This document shows, piece by piece, positions 14,130 through 20,622 of a stretch of DNA of 41,097 bases. The stretch lies in NCBI GenBank assembly GCA_022821875.1, contig JAJECV010000050.1:1-41097 (forward strand), read 5' to 3'. The notes under the pieces are model-generated. The model made no database searches, was not told the origin of the DNA, and saw only the letters and a list, made by a program, of their open reading frames with translations. This DNA is from Rhodothermales bacterium (GTDB lineage Bacteria > Bacteroidota > Rhodothermia > Rhodothermales > Bin80). Positions within the stretch are counted from its first letter, which is position 1. The number at the start of each line of letters is the position of its first letter. Position numbers and translations under genes: made by a program.

Positions 14130-14783
14130 ATGATACTGACTGACCCATCTACTATGGAGCGAGTGCGTGTCGGCAAAGTGCTCTGCATCGGTCGAAACTA
14201 CGCAAAGCACGCCGCAGAAATGAACGCTGCCGTTCCGGCGCAGCCGATCATTTTTCTGAAGCCCTCCACCGCACTTATACGCTCGCATGAGGCCATTCGT
14301 CTCCCCTCCATGACCTCAAACGTCCATCACGAAGTGGAACTGGTCGCCATGATCGGACGGGGCGGACGGGATATCCCCCCACAGCGCAGCCTTCATCATG
14401 TAACGGCCTACGCAATCGGATTAGATATGACGGCACGGGATTTACAGTCGGAAGCGAAGAGGAAGGGCAAACCGTGGAGTATAGCGAAAGGGTTTGATAC
14501 GTTTGCGCCACTTGGAGAACTGGTGCCTGCGGCCGAAATCGGGAATCCCCAGGAACTAACACTGTCGCTCAAAGTGAATGGCACCGTGAAACAGCATGGA
14601 ACTACGCAGAACATGATCTTCCCGGTTGCGCACCTAGTCTCATACTGTTCTAAAATCTTTACGCTGGAACACGGAGACCTGCTTTATACGGGTACGCCAG
14701 AGGGCGTGGGCCCGGTTGTCCAGGGGGATCGGCTGGAGGCGACCTGCAGCCGACTGCCGTCCCTTGAGGTCACGGTCGTTTGA
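14130..14783 (+). CDS. Fumarylacetoacetate hydrolase family protein (acylpyruvase / FAHD1-like)
   Basis: A 217-residue single-domain FAH protein. Visible are [13 protein letters not shown], the metal-binding [48 protein letters not shown] and the C-terminal [14 protein letters not shown]. Relatives such as YcgM and FAHD1 cleave acylpyruvates or decarboxylate oxaloacetate using Mg. It is convergent with ltaE, and the two coding regions overlap by 14 bases at their 3' ends. It is divergent from rplU. Confidence 0.92.
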
Positions 14784-15795
14784 GTGCCTGCTCAAACGCC
14801 CGAATCGCGGTATCAATGTTTTCTGTACAGAGATCCCGGTGAACCGTGGCCCGCAGTGTATTTGGGCCAACTTCCACCATTAAGACTCCCCGCTCATGTA
14901 AGCGCCTGAGCAAACGATCAGTTGTGAGTTCTATATCTGTCAACTGGATCAGTACGATATTCGTAGGGGGCGCAGGAACATGGATAGAGGGAAGAGTGGC
15001 CAGCCCATCTGCCAGACGCTGAGCATGCGCATGATCCTGTTCAAGGTCAGCGAGATGATGCTCAAGTGCATAGAGCCCGGCGGCCGCCAGGATGCCGACC
15101 TGCCGCATTCCTGCTCCCAATTCTTTTCTACGCCGGTGTGCACGCCGGATTGTTTTTTCGGTACCTGCAAACACGGATCCCACCGGGGCGCCCAATCCTT
15201 TGGAAAGGCATACGGTTACGGTATCAAAGGGGGCCGCATACTTGTGCACCGGGATCCGGGTGGAAACCGAGGCATTCCACAATCTGGCACCGTCAAGATG
15301 GCATGCCAGCCCATGCGCATGCGCACAGTCGGCCAGTTCCTGCAATTCCAGAAACGGATTCAGCAGCCCTCCGGCAATATTGAGTGTATTTTCCAGACAC
15401 AGCAGGGTGGAAGCGGATTCCCAGTAATGGCCGTTTCGCAGTGCACCCAGTAACTGGTCTTTCTGGAACCGTCCTCCCTTTCCCTCAATGACATGCAGCG
15501 TCACTCCGCTTAAACTGCTGGCGGCTCCAGATTCGTAATTAAAGATATGACTCTTTCTCTCCACAATGACTTCGTCGCCGGGCCGGGTATGTACATGAAT
15601 CCCCAACTGGTTTCCCATCATTCCCGACGGGACAAAGAGTGCCGCTTCTTTGCCGAGAAGCTTTGCAACTGTGTCCTGCAGTACCTCTACGGTTGGATCT
15701 TCCCCAAATACGTCATCCCCCACCTCGGCAGCTGCCATGGCACGGCGCATTCCCTCGGACGGGCGTGTCACCGTGTCACTGCGCAGGTCAATCAT
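14770..15795 (-). CDS. ltaE: Low-specificity threonine aldolase
   Basis: PLP enzyme that cleaves L-threonine or allo-threonine to glycine and acetaldehyde. The 341-residue protein begins [20 protein letters not shown], a hallmark of the family. It has [34 protein letters not shown] and the PLP-lysine region [15 protein letters not shown]. Its ATG overlaps the greA stop by four bases (ATGA), so the pair is coupled. Its 3' end overlaps the convergent FAH-family gene. Confidence 0.95.
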
Positions 15796-16268
15796 TGCCC
15801 ATCCCGGGTAATTTCCAGCACCTTCACATGCAGTTCGCCGGCCGGGACTTCAATGACCGCTTCTTCGTCCACAGCTTTGCCCAGGAGTCCCTTCCCGATG
15901 GGACTGGTAATCGGAATGCGTCCGCTGGCAACATCTGCTTCGGGTGCAGATACGAGAGTAACGGTCTTTTCTTTACCGGTCTTCAGGTTCACATAGCGAA
16001 CGGTAGACAGGATCCGGGCTCTGGAAGCATCGACATCCTCTTCATTCACGAGTCGGGCTTCTGCCAGGGTGTTCTCCATCTGCGCAATATGCGCCTCCAG
16101 TTTGCCCTGTGCCTCCTTGGCCGCATCATATTCGGCATTTTCAGAAAGGTCGCCATGTGCACGGGCTTCGGCGATCTCATTTGAGATACGCTTACGTTCC
16201 ACCGTACGTGCGTGATGGATATCTGCTTTGAGTTTCTTCAGTGCTTTTTCAGTGAGATAAACAGGCAT
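15792..16268 (-). CDS. greA: Transcript cleavage / elongation factor GreA
   Basis: A 158-residue protein with the two GreA parts. The N-terminal coiled coil carries the acidic tip [16 protein letters not shown], whose D and E residues sit in the RNA polymerase secondary channel. The C-terminal domain includes ISITSP-like [15 protein letters not shown]. It rescues backtracked polymerase by stimulating RNA cleavage. It lies between the NlpC-like lipoprotein (26 bases upstream) and ltaE (overlapping). Confidence 0.97.
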
Positions 16269-16294: not shown

Positions 16295-16864
16295 TCACCA
16301 CCCTACACGCCGATTTCCGAGGCTATCTGGAGTCTCTCCGGCCGTAACGGGGGTATGTACCGGGATCTGCTGCCCCAGAAGGCGTTTCCCGGCCCAGTAG
16401 GCACCGCTCCAGTACGGCTCATCAATTCGTCCGACAGTGACTCCGTCTTCCGGCCAAACATGCAGAAATTCCTGTGAGCCAAGGTAAATACCCACATGCC
16501 TCGGCATACTTGTAGGGCGGAAGAATACAATGTCTCCCGGCATGAGGGAACTTCGTTCAACTTCTACACCGAATCCCAGTTGCCGTGCCGTTGAATGCGG
16601 AAGCGAAAGCCCCATTATCTGTTCCGCAGCGGCCACTACGAGTCCAGGGGCATCCACGCCTGTCTGGTCTTTTCCTCCCTCTAGATGCGGGGTTCCCTGC
16701 CAGGATGCTGCAAAGGCGCGTAGTTCAGATGCAATTGCGGCGGAAGGCATGACTGGACTCACCGACGAAACCGCTTGCAGGGAGGGCGAGTCCTGTGTAC
16801 GCAGTTGCCGGCTTTGAGAGCAGCCCGCAAGGCAGACCGTACAGAGAAGAATATATACACGCAT
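16295..16864 (-). CDS. NlpC/P60-like lipoprotein lacking the catalytic cysteine
   Basis: A 189-residue protein with a lipoprotein signal (lipobox LAGC, Cys15). An NlpC/P60 fold follows: WQGTPHLEGGKDQTGVDAPG, LPHSTARQLGFG, SLMPGDIVFFRP and PRHVGIYLGSQEFLH. In active members the first motif reads G-x-D-C-S-G, with Cys as nucleophile. Here it is D-A-P-G: Ala72 replaces Cys and Pro replaces Ser. The second-site His123 (PRHVGIY) is kept. No cysteine lies nearby, so it cannot be a normal cysteine peptidase. It may bind peptidoglycan or regulate a true hydrolase. It is first gene of a likely minus-strand operon with greA and ltaE. Confidence 0.82.
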   Translation of the reverse strand: MRVYILLCTVCLAGCSQSRQLRTQDSPSLQAVSSVSPVMPSAAIASELRAFAASWQGTPHLEGGKDQTGVDAPGLVVAAAEQIMGLSLPHSTARQLGFGVEVERSSLMPGDIVFFRPTSMPRHVGIYLGSQEFLHVWPEDGVTVGRIDEPYWSGAYWAGKRLLGQQIPVHTPVTAGETPDSLGNRRVGW

Positions 16865-17604: not shown

Positions 17605-17738
17605 GGACTTGTACAGATTGGGCCTTGTATAGCGGGAATGGAAAGCGTCAATTCCTGATCATAATTTCACAGGAACAATCTGCTCCTCTGCGTGTATACA
17701 GGAACTCCATACCCTGTATATCGCTTACTGATTCTATC

Positions 17739-18257
17739 ATGCCATACCCCGAACATCTTGTATCTCCGATGCGTCAGGAACTCACCCGATTCGGCGTGGA
17801 TGAGTTGCGAACCGCCGAAGAGGTGACGAGTGCATTTGACATGACCTCCGGCCAGACAATGCTGCTGGTGATAAACTCTGTATGCGGCTGCGCGGCGGCC
17901 ATGGCACGCCCCGCGGTTGGCTTAGCTATGCAGAATAAGACGCAGCCAGACCGGGCAGTGACGGTATTCGCGGGGCAGGACCTCGCGGCGACCACCGCTG
18001 CAAGGGATCTACTGGTCGGTATTCCTCCCTCCTCCCCGTTTATGGCCTTGATCAAGGGTGGGGATGTGATGTACGTTATTGAACGCAGACACATTGAGGG
18101 GCGCAGCGCCGAGGCAATTGCGGTGGACTTAATCCAGGCATTTGATCGGTTCTGCGGAACGGATCAGATCGTAGAAGACGGACCTGAGAGCCCTGATACA
18201 ACGGGGACGGATGCCGGGAGCCCGCTTTCGTCTTCATTCCGTTCCATCATTCGGTAA
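17739..18257 (+). CDS. BrxA/BrxB-family bacilliredoxin
   Basis: A 172-residue thioredoxin-like protein. The start at ATG 17739 fits the family's MPYPEHLVSPMRQELTRFGV opening, although the frame is open upstream to 17625. The redox motif is C49-G50-C51 in VINSVCGCAAAMARP. The later PSSPFMALIKGGDVMYVIERRHIEG is also typical. Bacilliredoxins remove bacillithiol from mixed disulfides, or act as general thiol-disulfide proteins in Bacteroidota. The C-terminal tail of about 28 Ser/Thr/Asp-rich residues extends past the usual family end. It might form a small redox unit with the upstream flavoprotein. Confidence 0.9.
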   Translation: MPYPEHLVSPMRQELTRFGVDELRTAEEVTSAFDMTSGQTMLLVINSVCGCAAAMARPAVGLAMQNKTQPDRAVTVFAGQDLAATTAARDLLVGIPPSSPFMALIKGGDVMYVIERRHIEGRSAEAIAVDLIQAFDRFCGTDQIVEDGPESPDTTGTDAGSPLSSSFRSIIR

Positions 18258-18654: not shown

Positions 18655-18963
18655 CTATTCCAGAGCCACATGCATTTCCCTGATCTCTTCCTGAAACACC
18701 TTCGGTAAGTCATCCCATATAAACAAGTCCACCCGGAACAGTAAATCGCTTTCCTCAAAGGCTTCCCGCAGATCATGGACCTGCGGCCGCTGTTCAGGTT
18801 TCGCAAAGACTACGAGGTCCAGGTCGGATTTGTGCGTAGATGTTGACTTCACACGGGAACCATATACCCAGGCAGGCGTGCCGGGAAGGTACTGTTCGAG
18901 CAATGTCTGGAGCACTTTGTACTCGTCCGTGCTAATGTGAATTGCGTCCTGAGTTATATCCAT
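18655..18963 (-). CDS. mntA: MntA-like minimal nucleotidyltransferase (antitoxin)
   Basis: A 102-residue minimal nucleotidyltransferase. The active-site motif G35-S36-x10-D47-x-D49 lies in VYGSRVKSTSTHKSDLDL, and a third carboxylate, D79, is in RVDLFIWDD. This is the GSx10DxD pattern of MntA antitoxins, which in characterised type VII systems transfer AMP to a tyrosine of the partner HepT toxin. Its ATG (18963) overlaps the end of the HEPN gene by ten bases, the usual toxin-first coupled order. All catalytic acids are present, so it is predicted to be active. Confidence 0.85.
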   Translation of the reverse strand: MDITQDAIHISTDEYKVLQTLLEQYLPGTPAWVYGSRVKSTSTHKSDLDLVVFAKPEQRPQVHDLREAFEESDLLFRVDLFIWDDLPKVFQEEIREMHVALE

Positions 18964-19370
18964 GGCTCTCCGGTCATTTCATTATAGAGTTTGATCGCAT
19001 CCGCAATAAAATCCGGTACCAGATCAAGGCATGCCAACGCCTTATCCTCATCATAGTCGTGAGATGTATCTGTTCGTGCGTTCGCATACTTGAACCATTG
19101 TGCCAATGATCCAGACAGAAGATCGTTTTCGTTTGCCAACCTTAAGAGCGGCTTCGGACTGTTTGGAACACTGGCCAGTCCAAGTTCTTCAATCATGTAC
19201 CTTTTCATCGCCTTCCACAAGCATTCACAGCAAACTTCAAAGCGCTGAATGACGGACTCCATGACTGCCTCACGAATCAGGACAGCGACTGATGGATCCA
19301 GTCGTATATAGTGTTCATGCTGTTCCTGCAGGCGTTTGAGAGATAAACGAAACTTATCGTAGTTAATCAT
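18954..19370 (-). CDS. hepT: HepT-like HEPN-domain toxin
   Basis: A 138-residue all-helical HEPN protein of the nucleotidyltransferase-substrate-binding (HI0074-like) type. The RNase motif R99-x4-H104-x-Y106 is intact in ARTDTSHDYDEDKA. The tyrosine corresponds to the residue that MntA AMPylates in studied HepT/MntA pairs. The start ATG 19370 gives MINYDKFRLSLKRLQEQ, the family's normal N-terminus. However, the frame continues open upstream to 19628, so a longer fusion cannot be excluded. The gene overlaps mntA by ten bases. A DNA methyltransferase gene lies upstream on the same strand, which is consistent with a small defence or addiction cluster. Confidence 0.85.
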   Translation of the reverse strand: MINYDKFRLSLKRLQEQHEHYIRLDPSVAVLIREAVMESVIQRFEVCCECLWKAMKRYMIEELGLASVPNSPKPLLRLANENDLLSGSLAQWFKYANARTDTSHDYDEDKALACLDLVPDFIADAIKLYNEMTGEPWI

Positions 19371-19630
19371 GAATACCGTCGGGTTTGCTTTGGTAAGAAA
19401 TGAGATGCTCACCGTATGTAGAATAACCGTTCTTGATTGATCACCGAAAAGCAAAACACGGGAATAAATTTCCGCCTTCAAACCGTATGATCTGTTCGCC
19501 TCCTGCATCTCTGATCGCCCGATTATCTGAGCGAACCCGGTTCTGGACATGAGCAATGAGATCCGTTGCCCATGACCGTTTGCTGCAGGATAAATCAGGC
19601 ATGATTCACCCTGTGACTCACGAAGAATCT
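19371..19630 (-). other. Open reading stretch between methyltransferase and hepT, function unknown
   Basis: The hepT frame stays open upstream for 86 codons back to a TAG at 19631-19629. It overlaps the end of the methyltransferase gene and reads plausibly as protein (FAQIIGRSEMQEANRSYGLK, then EIYSRVLLFGDQSRTVILHT). Possible starts are TTG 19556 and ATG 19550. A second frame has ATG 19602, preceded by AGGGTGA, and encodes 53 residues (MPDLSCSKRSWATDLIAHVQ...) up to a TGA at 19441. Either could be the remains of a restriction enzyme or another partner of the methyltransferase. I recognise no domain. Confidence 0.3.
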
Positions 19631-20622
19631 AACCCGCTATCCACATCAATCATACATGAATCGCCGGCCTGTCCAATTCTAGCACTGGGTTGAAGTGATG
19701 ACAACAGCGGTGGAGGCAGATTTTCTCCGGCCATATCGTTTTCAACTTCAGCTAGTCTCTGATGAGCGACTTTCATATAATCAATCCGCTCGTTCCTGAA
19801 AAGATGTACATCTTCGTTTTTTTCAATACCAATATATCTGCGCCCTTCCATAGCGGCCGCGACCAGAAAGCTACCGCTGCCGAAAGCATTATCAAGCACA
19901 AGCCCGTTTTTTCCGGTAAATAGTCGAATGAGGTACCTCCCCAGGGCAACGGGTTTCTGTGTGGGATGCCAAACACGCCCTCCTGCTTCACTTTCAGCCG
20001 TTTTGCAATAGAGCGTATCTGTAGGAAAACGTTCACCAGTACTCTTTACATAAACCGGCTTAAAATCTCCGTAACTTCCTGTATACTGATCCTTACGGGT
20101 TCCTTTATCGGATGGATCCGCTAACCACATTACAGAACGATACTTTGGCTGTCTGAGGTAGAAGATGCAGATATCTTCATGCTGCCTCAGAGGCTGCCGC
20201 CGGGCATTCAAGAAGTTTGTAGGCTTGCTCTTTACCCAGACAAATTTATAGCGGAACCATTGTTCATTGCTAAGAATGAGTTTAGCCGTAAACACGCCCT
20301 GTGATGTTAATGCAATGACCCCTCTGGGCTTAATTATCCTTCGATAGGCTTTCCATAATTGATCAAGGGGGATTTGGCTGTCCCATTTATTCCGGGTAGT
20401 ACCATAAGGCAAATCACAGAGGATCAAATCAACAGAATGGTCCTTTATATTTTCCATCAACCGGATACAATCTCCCTGATAGAGATGATTTGCTGACAGG
20501 ATCAATTCGGCAATTTCCGGTGACACATCCGTTGCGGGACTTGAATCTTTCCTTGACAGCGCACCATCATACCTGCTGGATGCATGTTGAGATGAGGTTA
20601 GAACGTCAGCAGGTTGTTGCAT
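19618..20622 (-). CDS. Beta-class DNA N6-adenine / N4-cytosine methyltransferase
   Basis: A 334-residue SAM-dependent DNA methyltransferase. The catalytic motif IV is DLPYG (residues 70-74) in LILCDLPYGTTRNKWD. The target-recognition middle comes next. Near the C-terminus are HPTQKPVALGRYLI and the SAM-binding motif I, NAFGSGSFLVAAAMEGRRYIG. Motif IV before motif I is the beta order, and the TTRNKWD variant is common in phage and orphan methyltransferases. The first 45 residues are not conserved-looking, so the true start may be internal. No restriction endonuclease is recognisable next to it. The next genes downstream are an unknown stretch and HepT/MntA. Confidence 0.88.
   Translation of the reverse strand: MQQPADVLTSSQHASSRYDGALSRKDSSPATDVSPEIAELILSANHLYQGDCIRLMENIKDHSVDLILCDLPYGTTRNKWDSQIPLDQLWKAYRRIIKPRGVIALTSQGVFTAKLILSNEQWFRYKFVWVKSKPTNFLNARRQPLRQHEDICIFYLRQPKYRSVMWLADPSDKGTRKDQYTGSYGDFKPVYVKSTGERFPTDTLYCKTAESEAGGRVWHPTQKPVALGRYLIRLFTGKNGLVLDNAFGSGSFLVAAAMEGRRYIGIEKNEDVHLFRNERIDYMKVAHQRLAEVENDMAGENLPPPLLSSLQPSARIGQAGDSCMIDVDSGLDSS

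Follow-up and report, generated by a model that had tools for sequence, protein, structure and literature searches.

A MepS-type lipoprotein without its catalytic cysteine is probably kept as a pseudoenzyme throughout one Rhodothermales family

The only NlpC/P60 protein of one family of marine, partly sponge-associated Rhodothermales lacks the nucleophilic Cys in every genome sampled (16 genomes of 6 genera, nearly all fragmented drafts). With moderate confidence, this protein is regarded here as an outer-membrane pseudo-endopeptidase, in which an ancient, single loss of the Cys was followed by retention as a pseudoenzyme that likely binds peptidoglycan or controls a hydrolase. The parts of this reading differ in strength. 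It is highly probable that the protein is not a hydrolase, and equally so that it is selected for a non-catalytic function; involvement of peptidoglycan binding in that function is slightly favoured, and direct control of another hydrolase, a role overlapping with peptidoglycan binding, is put forward tentatively.

The window, i.e., the whole stretch of 41,097 nucleotides that was analysed, corresponds to contig 51 in a draft genome of 3.68 Mb (~96% complete). Its closest named relatives are Rhodothermales MAGs, with 96% protein identity to isolate jk18x9bins.87; the relative bin80 derives from the sponge Aplysina aerophoba (PMC5649159). The first-pass annotation placed an NlpC/P60 lipoprotein at 16295-16864, and this location is correct; translation of the open reading frame adds that the gene lies on the minus strand, with the start codon at 16864 and the stop codon at 16297-16295. 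The gene, here nlpC, and its features are as follows.

16295..16864, minus strand: gene of the Cys-less NlpC/P60 (MepS-like) lipoprotein, 189 aa (open reading frame, PF00877; MepS is the best solved relative)
16820..16831, minus strand: lipobox L-A-G-C15 with the acylation Cys (translation)
16388..16696, minus strand: NlpC/P60 domain (PF00877), residues 57-159, E 3e-20 (2.8e-20 in the contig profile search)
16649..16651, minus strand: Ala72 codon GCC, replacing the catalytic Cys (MepS Cys68; MepS alignment)
16646..16648, minus strand: Pro73 codon CCT, replacing the invariant Ser of D-C-S (Ser in 74/74 active orthologues, Pro in all 12 members of the Ala-Pro subclade)
16496..16498, minus strand: His123, first catalytic-site His of MepS, retained (invariant in 90/90 orthologues, Cys-bearing and Cys-less)
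16460..16462, minus strand: His135, second catalytic-site His of MepS, retained (invariant in 90/90 orthologues)
16448..16456, minus strand: Trp137-Pro138-Glu139, rebuilt loop past His135 (active orthologues mostly H-A-S-S/T-S)
16298..16312, minus strand: C-terminal R-R-V-G-W (G188 and W189 invariant in a 20-sequence alignment)

With a PF00877 profile score of 72.5 bits, where the cut-off is 23, the protein belongs to the NlpC/P60 superfamily. Cys15 of the lipobox is invariant in 20/20 homologues aligned and is followed at +2 by Ser, so that the Asp signal for inner-membrane retention is absent; under the Asp-signal sorting rule, which is taken from E. coli lipoproteins, the protein is predicted to be anchored in the outer membrane and to face the periplasm. 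At the other end, the -GW tail (16298-16303) terminates most orthologues, active or not (including L014-L031 and L033-L037), with L040, L048 and L052 as exceptions, and is absent from E. coli MepS in the alignment. It is conceivable that this tail serves as a docking tag, read by a protease specific for C-termini or by some other partner.

E. coli MepS (Spr) is a murein DD-endopeptidase/LD-carboxypeptidase lipoprotein (NF008096) that cuts D-Ala-mDAP cross-links, and its structures (2k1g, 8xud, 7v6s) are the nearest solved ones by sequence (E ~1e-24). In this alignment, MepS G-I-D-C-S-G pairs with G-V-D-A-P-G, which assigns the nucleophile position to Ala72 and the neighbouring one to Pro73, and MepS RHVGIY...FVH pairs with RHVGIY...FLH. 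The AF2 model of the window protein (mean pLDDT 68; most core blocks at 77-94, with low confidence in both tails and in loop 59-69, which precedes the nucleophile helix) also finds its best matches among MepS structures (Z 18.4, 2.5 A over 119 residues), and matches RipD at Z 13.4; these model-based matches support the NlpC fold and say nothing on function. The replacement of D-C-S-G by D-A-P-G (codons GAT GCC CCT GGA) is as initially described, as is the retention of the His motif, lipobox and fold. The window protein resembles MepS as a lipoprotein with a single NlpC/P60 domain, both active-site His and the same overall length, but differs in the change of Cys68 to Ala and of the flanking Ser to Pro, the rebuilt post-His loop and the RRVGW tail. 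It has the lipobox and the two catalytic-site histidines of MepS, but scores 97.8 bits against the cut-off of 186 of the MepS equivalog NF008096 and lacks the catalytic Cys.

Substitution of Cys68 by Ala (C68A) abolishes the endopeptidase activity of E. coli Spr/MepS (PMC7774453). The window protein has no Cys beyond the lipobox, and no second Cys follows the lipobox in 15/16 family orthologues; the one extra Cys of the remaining orthologue, L010, lies in the DIVCF strand, off the active site. Without a Cys after the lipobox, activity through an alternative Cys is impossible, and an alternative nucleophile Cys is thus ruled out in these 15. Together with the effect of C68A, this makes hydrolysis by the known mechanism very unlikely.

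The absence of Cys is a property of the family. The site holds Ala in 13, Pro in 2 and Gln in 1 of the 16 family genomes, whereas Cys is kept, always as D-C-S, in 74/74 matching genomes from the rest of the order; ten further paralogous loci examined are also D-C-S. With 16/16 Cys-less proteins inside the family and 0/74 outside, chance is no issue. The Ala-Pro pair is common to all 10 genomes of the window's genus and to two further genera (12 genomes in all), in which all four GCN codons for Ala and several CCN codons for Pro are in use, indicating that the pair is held at the amino-acid level. The first-pass annotation had proposed examining close homologues for conservation of the Ala-Pro substitution, and had named Cys retention throughout sister species (a recent mutation or error) and activity from a different Cys as outcomes that would speak against it; the Ala-Pro pair proved conserved, no family member has Cys at the site, and no usable second Cys was found. 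An origin in an error of sequencing or a recent mutation, or activity provided by some other Cys, has nothing in its favour, and is opposed by the sixteen separate genomes in six genera, the varied codons at the site and the lack of Cys past the lipobox in 15/16; its probability is practically negligible.

Exactly one PF00877 gene is present per genome in 16/16 family genomes, and no backup active NlpC/P60 gene was found elsewhere in any of them. Across the order, PF00877 is wholly absent from 24 of 114 genomes, several of which are >95% complete and none of which belongs to the Cys-less family; members of genus g34 and part of g19 are among them. In genome G007, a stop-riddled degenerate fragment (contig 65, 25317-25603) matches the same protein (E 5e-6) and is possibly a second, broken copy.

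The genes adjoining nlpC provide markers of orthology.

15792..16268, minus strand: greA, 26 bp downstream of nlpC, probable operon partner and orthology marker (Pfam GreA; synteny)
14770..15795, minus strand: gene of an ltaE-like beta-eliminating lyase, overlapping greA by 4 bp (PF01212, E 1.7e-95; synteny)
17625..18257, plus strand: divergently oriented BrxA/BrxB-type gene (PF06491), which also marks synteny

The co-orientation of nlpC with greA and ltaE, already pointed out from the sequence, is thus borne out. In a comparison of ~50 loci with flanks, the block of divergent brxA/B-like gene, nlpC, greA and ltaE is common, with minor gaps, to most Cys-bearing and Cys-less orthologues across the order. 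The Cys-bearing syntenic orthologues of other Rhodothermales families share the locus, the neighbours, ~31-46% identity and, in most, the -GW tail, but have D-C-S in 74/74 and a mostly intact H-A-S-S/T. Homologues found in a search of plasmids are distant only (<60% identity). Only in the window genome and in its nearest relative (L003/L068) does a PNPOx-type gene (PF01243; 16993-17604, plus strand) separate nlpC from the brxA/B-like gene; none was found in this place at the other loci compared. Farther out, at 18655-19556 on the minus strand, genes for a small nucleotidyltransferase (Polbeta/NTP_transf_2) and an NTase_sub_bind protein adjoin each other, a pair whose make-up is like that of MNT-HEPN toxin-antitoxin systems; an N6/N4 DNA methylase gene (PF01555) follows at 19618-20622 on the minus strand, with no obvious nuclease in the part examined.

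Because nlpC heads a closely spaced, co-oriented cluster whose gene order is identical in active and inactive lineages, it might be kept only as the leader of an nlpC-greA-ltaE operon, supplying a promoter or translational coupling while the protein itself is irrelevant. Selection acts on the amino acids, beyond mere presence of a reading frame, which makes such a role very improbable. A scan of the operon for promoters and terminators returned sites not above approximately chance level. Domain-only dN/dS between Cys-less pairs is 0.06-0.20 (median 0.09), against 0.04-0.17 for the Cys-bearing orthologues. Purifying selection on the Cys-less domain is thus strong, about as in active orthologues, which argues that the protein is retained for function. 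The first-pass annotation had suggested a retained non-enzymatic role, such as binding peptidoglycan or controlling another hydrolase; this selection, together with the inactivity of the MepS C68A protein, supports a retained non-enzymatic role, of which peptidoglycan binding and hydrolase control would be possible forms. A decaying, functionless gene would agree with the loss of the nucleophile and with the gaps in NlpC/P60 content elsewhere in the order, but is contradicted by a reading frame open in 16/16 genomes and by the low dN/dS, and further opposed by the retained lipobox and by newly fixed residues; decay is extremely improbable.

These residues are found in the 12-member Ala-Pro subclade, where R94, L96, G97, E101, T118, P121, S130, R146 and G154 are fixed at positions that are variable in active orthologues. 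Ser at 137, present in 65 of the 71 active orthologues with a residue there, is Trp in 12/12, and Ser at 139 (66 of 74 active orthologues) is Asp, Glu or Gly. At two more positions, R90 is changed to His in the window's genus and T92 to Pro in the other Cys-less subclade. Positions 90, 92, 137 and 139 all belong to the former substrate groove, part of which is thus rebuilt, and 90, 137 and 139 are close to the catalytic centre; the ancestral ligand may therefore be bound no longer. The newly fixed columns suggest, at the level of sequence, new constraint, and neither decay nor drift.

Such remodelling could mean that the protein acts away from peptidoglycan, as a regulator whose rebuilt face (W137-P138, R94-x-L-G-x-G-x-E101 and T118-x-x-P121) binds another envelope protein. 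The newly fixed residues surround the former groove loops in 12/12, and control of wall hydrolases by inactive domains is established in another fold (PMC10336132, PMC8360153). However, the invariant His123, His135 and G69 and the near-invariant D71 exceed what a pure partner surface would need, and no conserved hydrolase gene adjoins nlpC at the syntenic loci compared; this possibility is considered rather unlikely.

The same conserved residues could instead sustain an enzyme of another chemistry, with His123, His135 and Asp71 activating water or holding a metal. Both His are invariant in 16/16 Cys-less proteins and, by contrast, RipD lacks both (Ala83-Ser132-Glu144; PMC12067865). Against this stands the loss of Spr/MepS activity in C68A. 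The Cys site itself varies among Ala, Pro and Gln, and D71 is Gly in L035, so that these positions offer no conserved replacement for the catalytic residue. His123, which opens a core strand, may also be structural. Continued catalysis by other means is therefore improbable. The same low probability is given to a family without a Cys-dependent NlpC/P60 peptidase whose former MepS has a new Cys-independent activity, or a new ligand, still needing the invariant His123 and His135.

In a tree of the neighbouring genes (GreA+LtaE+BrxA), the 16 Cys-less loci form one clade (SH-aLRT 100), suggesting a single ancient loss. The nlpC gene tree groups 15 of them and leaves L034 (genus g5) unplaced; a single clade appears in 25% of bootstraps and is not rejected for all 16 (p-AU 0.27). 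The nlpC tree alone does not settle a single origin because L034 is a long branch, and the neighbouring genes settle it better. One Cys loss in the family ancestor is suggested as the simplest history. The site of L034 is otherwise enzyme-like (D-A-S-A with H-A-S-S-S), and looks like what would be expected of an early stage after Cys loss. The absence of Cys in 16/16, the median dN/dS of 0.09 and the single neighbour-gene clade together characterise a lineage-fixed pseudoenzyme.

In the proposed course of events, the gene is orthologous to that of an active murein endopeptidase lipoprotein of MepS type; it would have been inherited vertically, would have lost its nucleophile Cys once in the ancestor of this family, and would then have been kept as a pseudoenzyme. 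Peptide cross-links would no longer be cleaved, and, less certainly, the non-cleaving groove might still recognise the stem peptides of murein, or a hydrolase as partner, thereby positioning or limiting the real cutters. The candidates for these are the M23 metallopeptidases, the single Amidase_3 enzyme and the PBP4-type enzyme: all 16 family genomes encode M23 proteins (5-7), one PBP4-type protein and two YkuD proteins, and 15/16 encode one Amidase_3 protein. M23 expansion was not seen, the 5-7 genes per family genome lying within the 3-13 of the order; compensation for the lost cutter is not visible in them. Retention in every family genome under strict selection points to what is probably a non-cutting job at the cell wall.

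Non-catalytic NlpC/P60 proteins are already known. The closest functional precedent is M. tuberculosis RipD (Rv1566c; 4jxb, 4lj1), a non-catalytic, peptidoglycan-binding protein with Ala83-Ser132-Glu144 that is one of five NlpC/P60 proteins in its genome (PMC12067865), and it was the only precedent found in a non-exhaustive search of the open-access literature for NlpC pseudoenzymes or Cys-lacking NlpC proteins. Both proteins have Ala for Cys and are retained in a clade, but in RipD the two remaining triad positions are replaced as well (now Ser132 and Glu144), whereas the window protein, with its triad replaced at Cys only, keeps both His; it is also a predicted outer-membrane lipoprotein and the sole NlpC/P60 protein of its genome. 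Its score with the RipD model NF033743 is 32.7 bits against a cut-off of 215. The LytM proteins ActS and DipM, which are catalytically dead, bind amidases and further autolysins (PMC8360153, PMC10336132), and are alike in their way of working, a hydrolase fold without catalytic residues controlling wall hydrolases, but have the M23 metallopeptidase fold, not that of a papain-like cysteine peptidase, and share no ancestry with the window protein. What appears to be new is that the sole MepS-type protein, an orthologue of active ones, has been disarmed across a whole family with its His pair conserved.

RipD coexists with active relatives, whereas here the only NlpC/P60 gene has been disarmed throughout a family and yet kept; elsewhere in the order, some lineages dispensed with the gene altogether, and the Cys-less family kept a presumably dead version. 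This amounts to a natural experiment in which what a MepS-type protein contributes by catalysis is set apart from what it contributes otherwise. With Cys-bearing and Cys-less orthologues at one locus, and with L034, which looks like little beyond the bare Cys-to-Ala step, the roles of MepS-type proteins besides cutting become testable.
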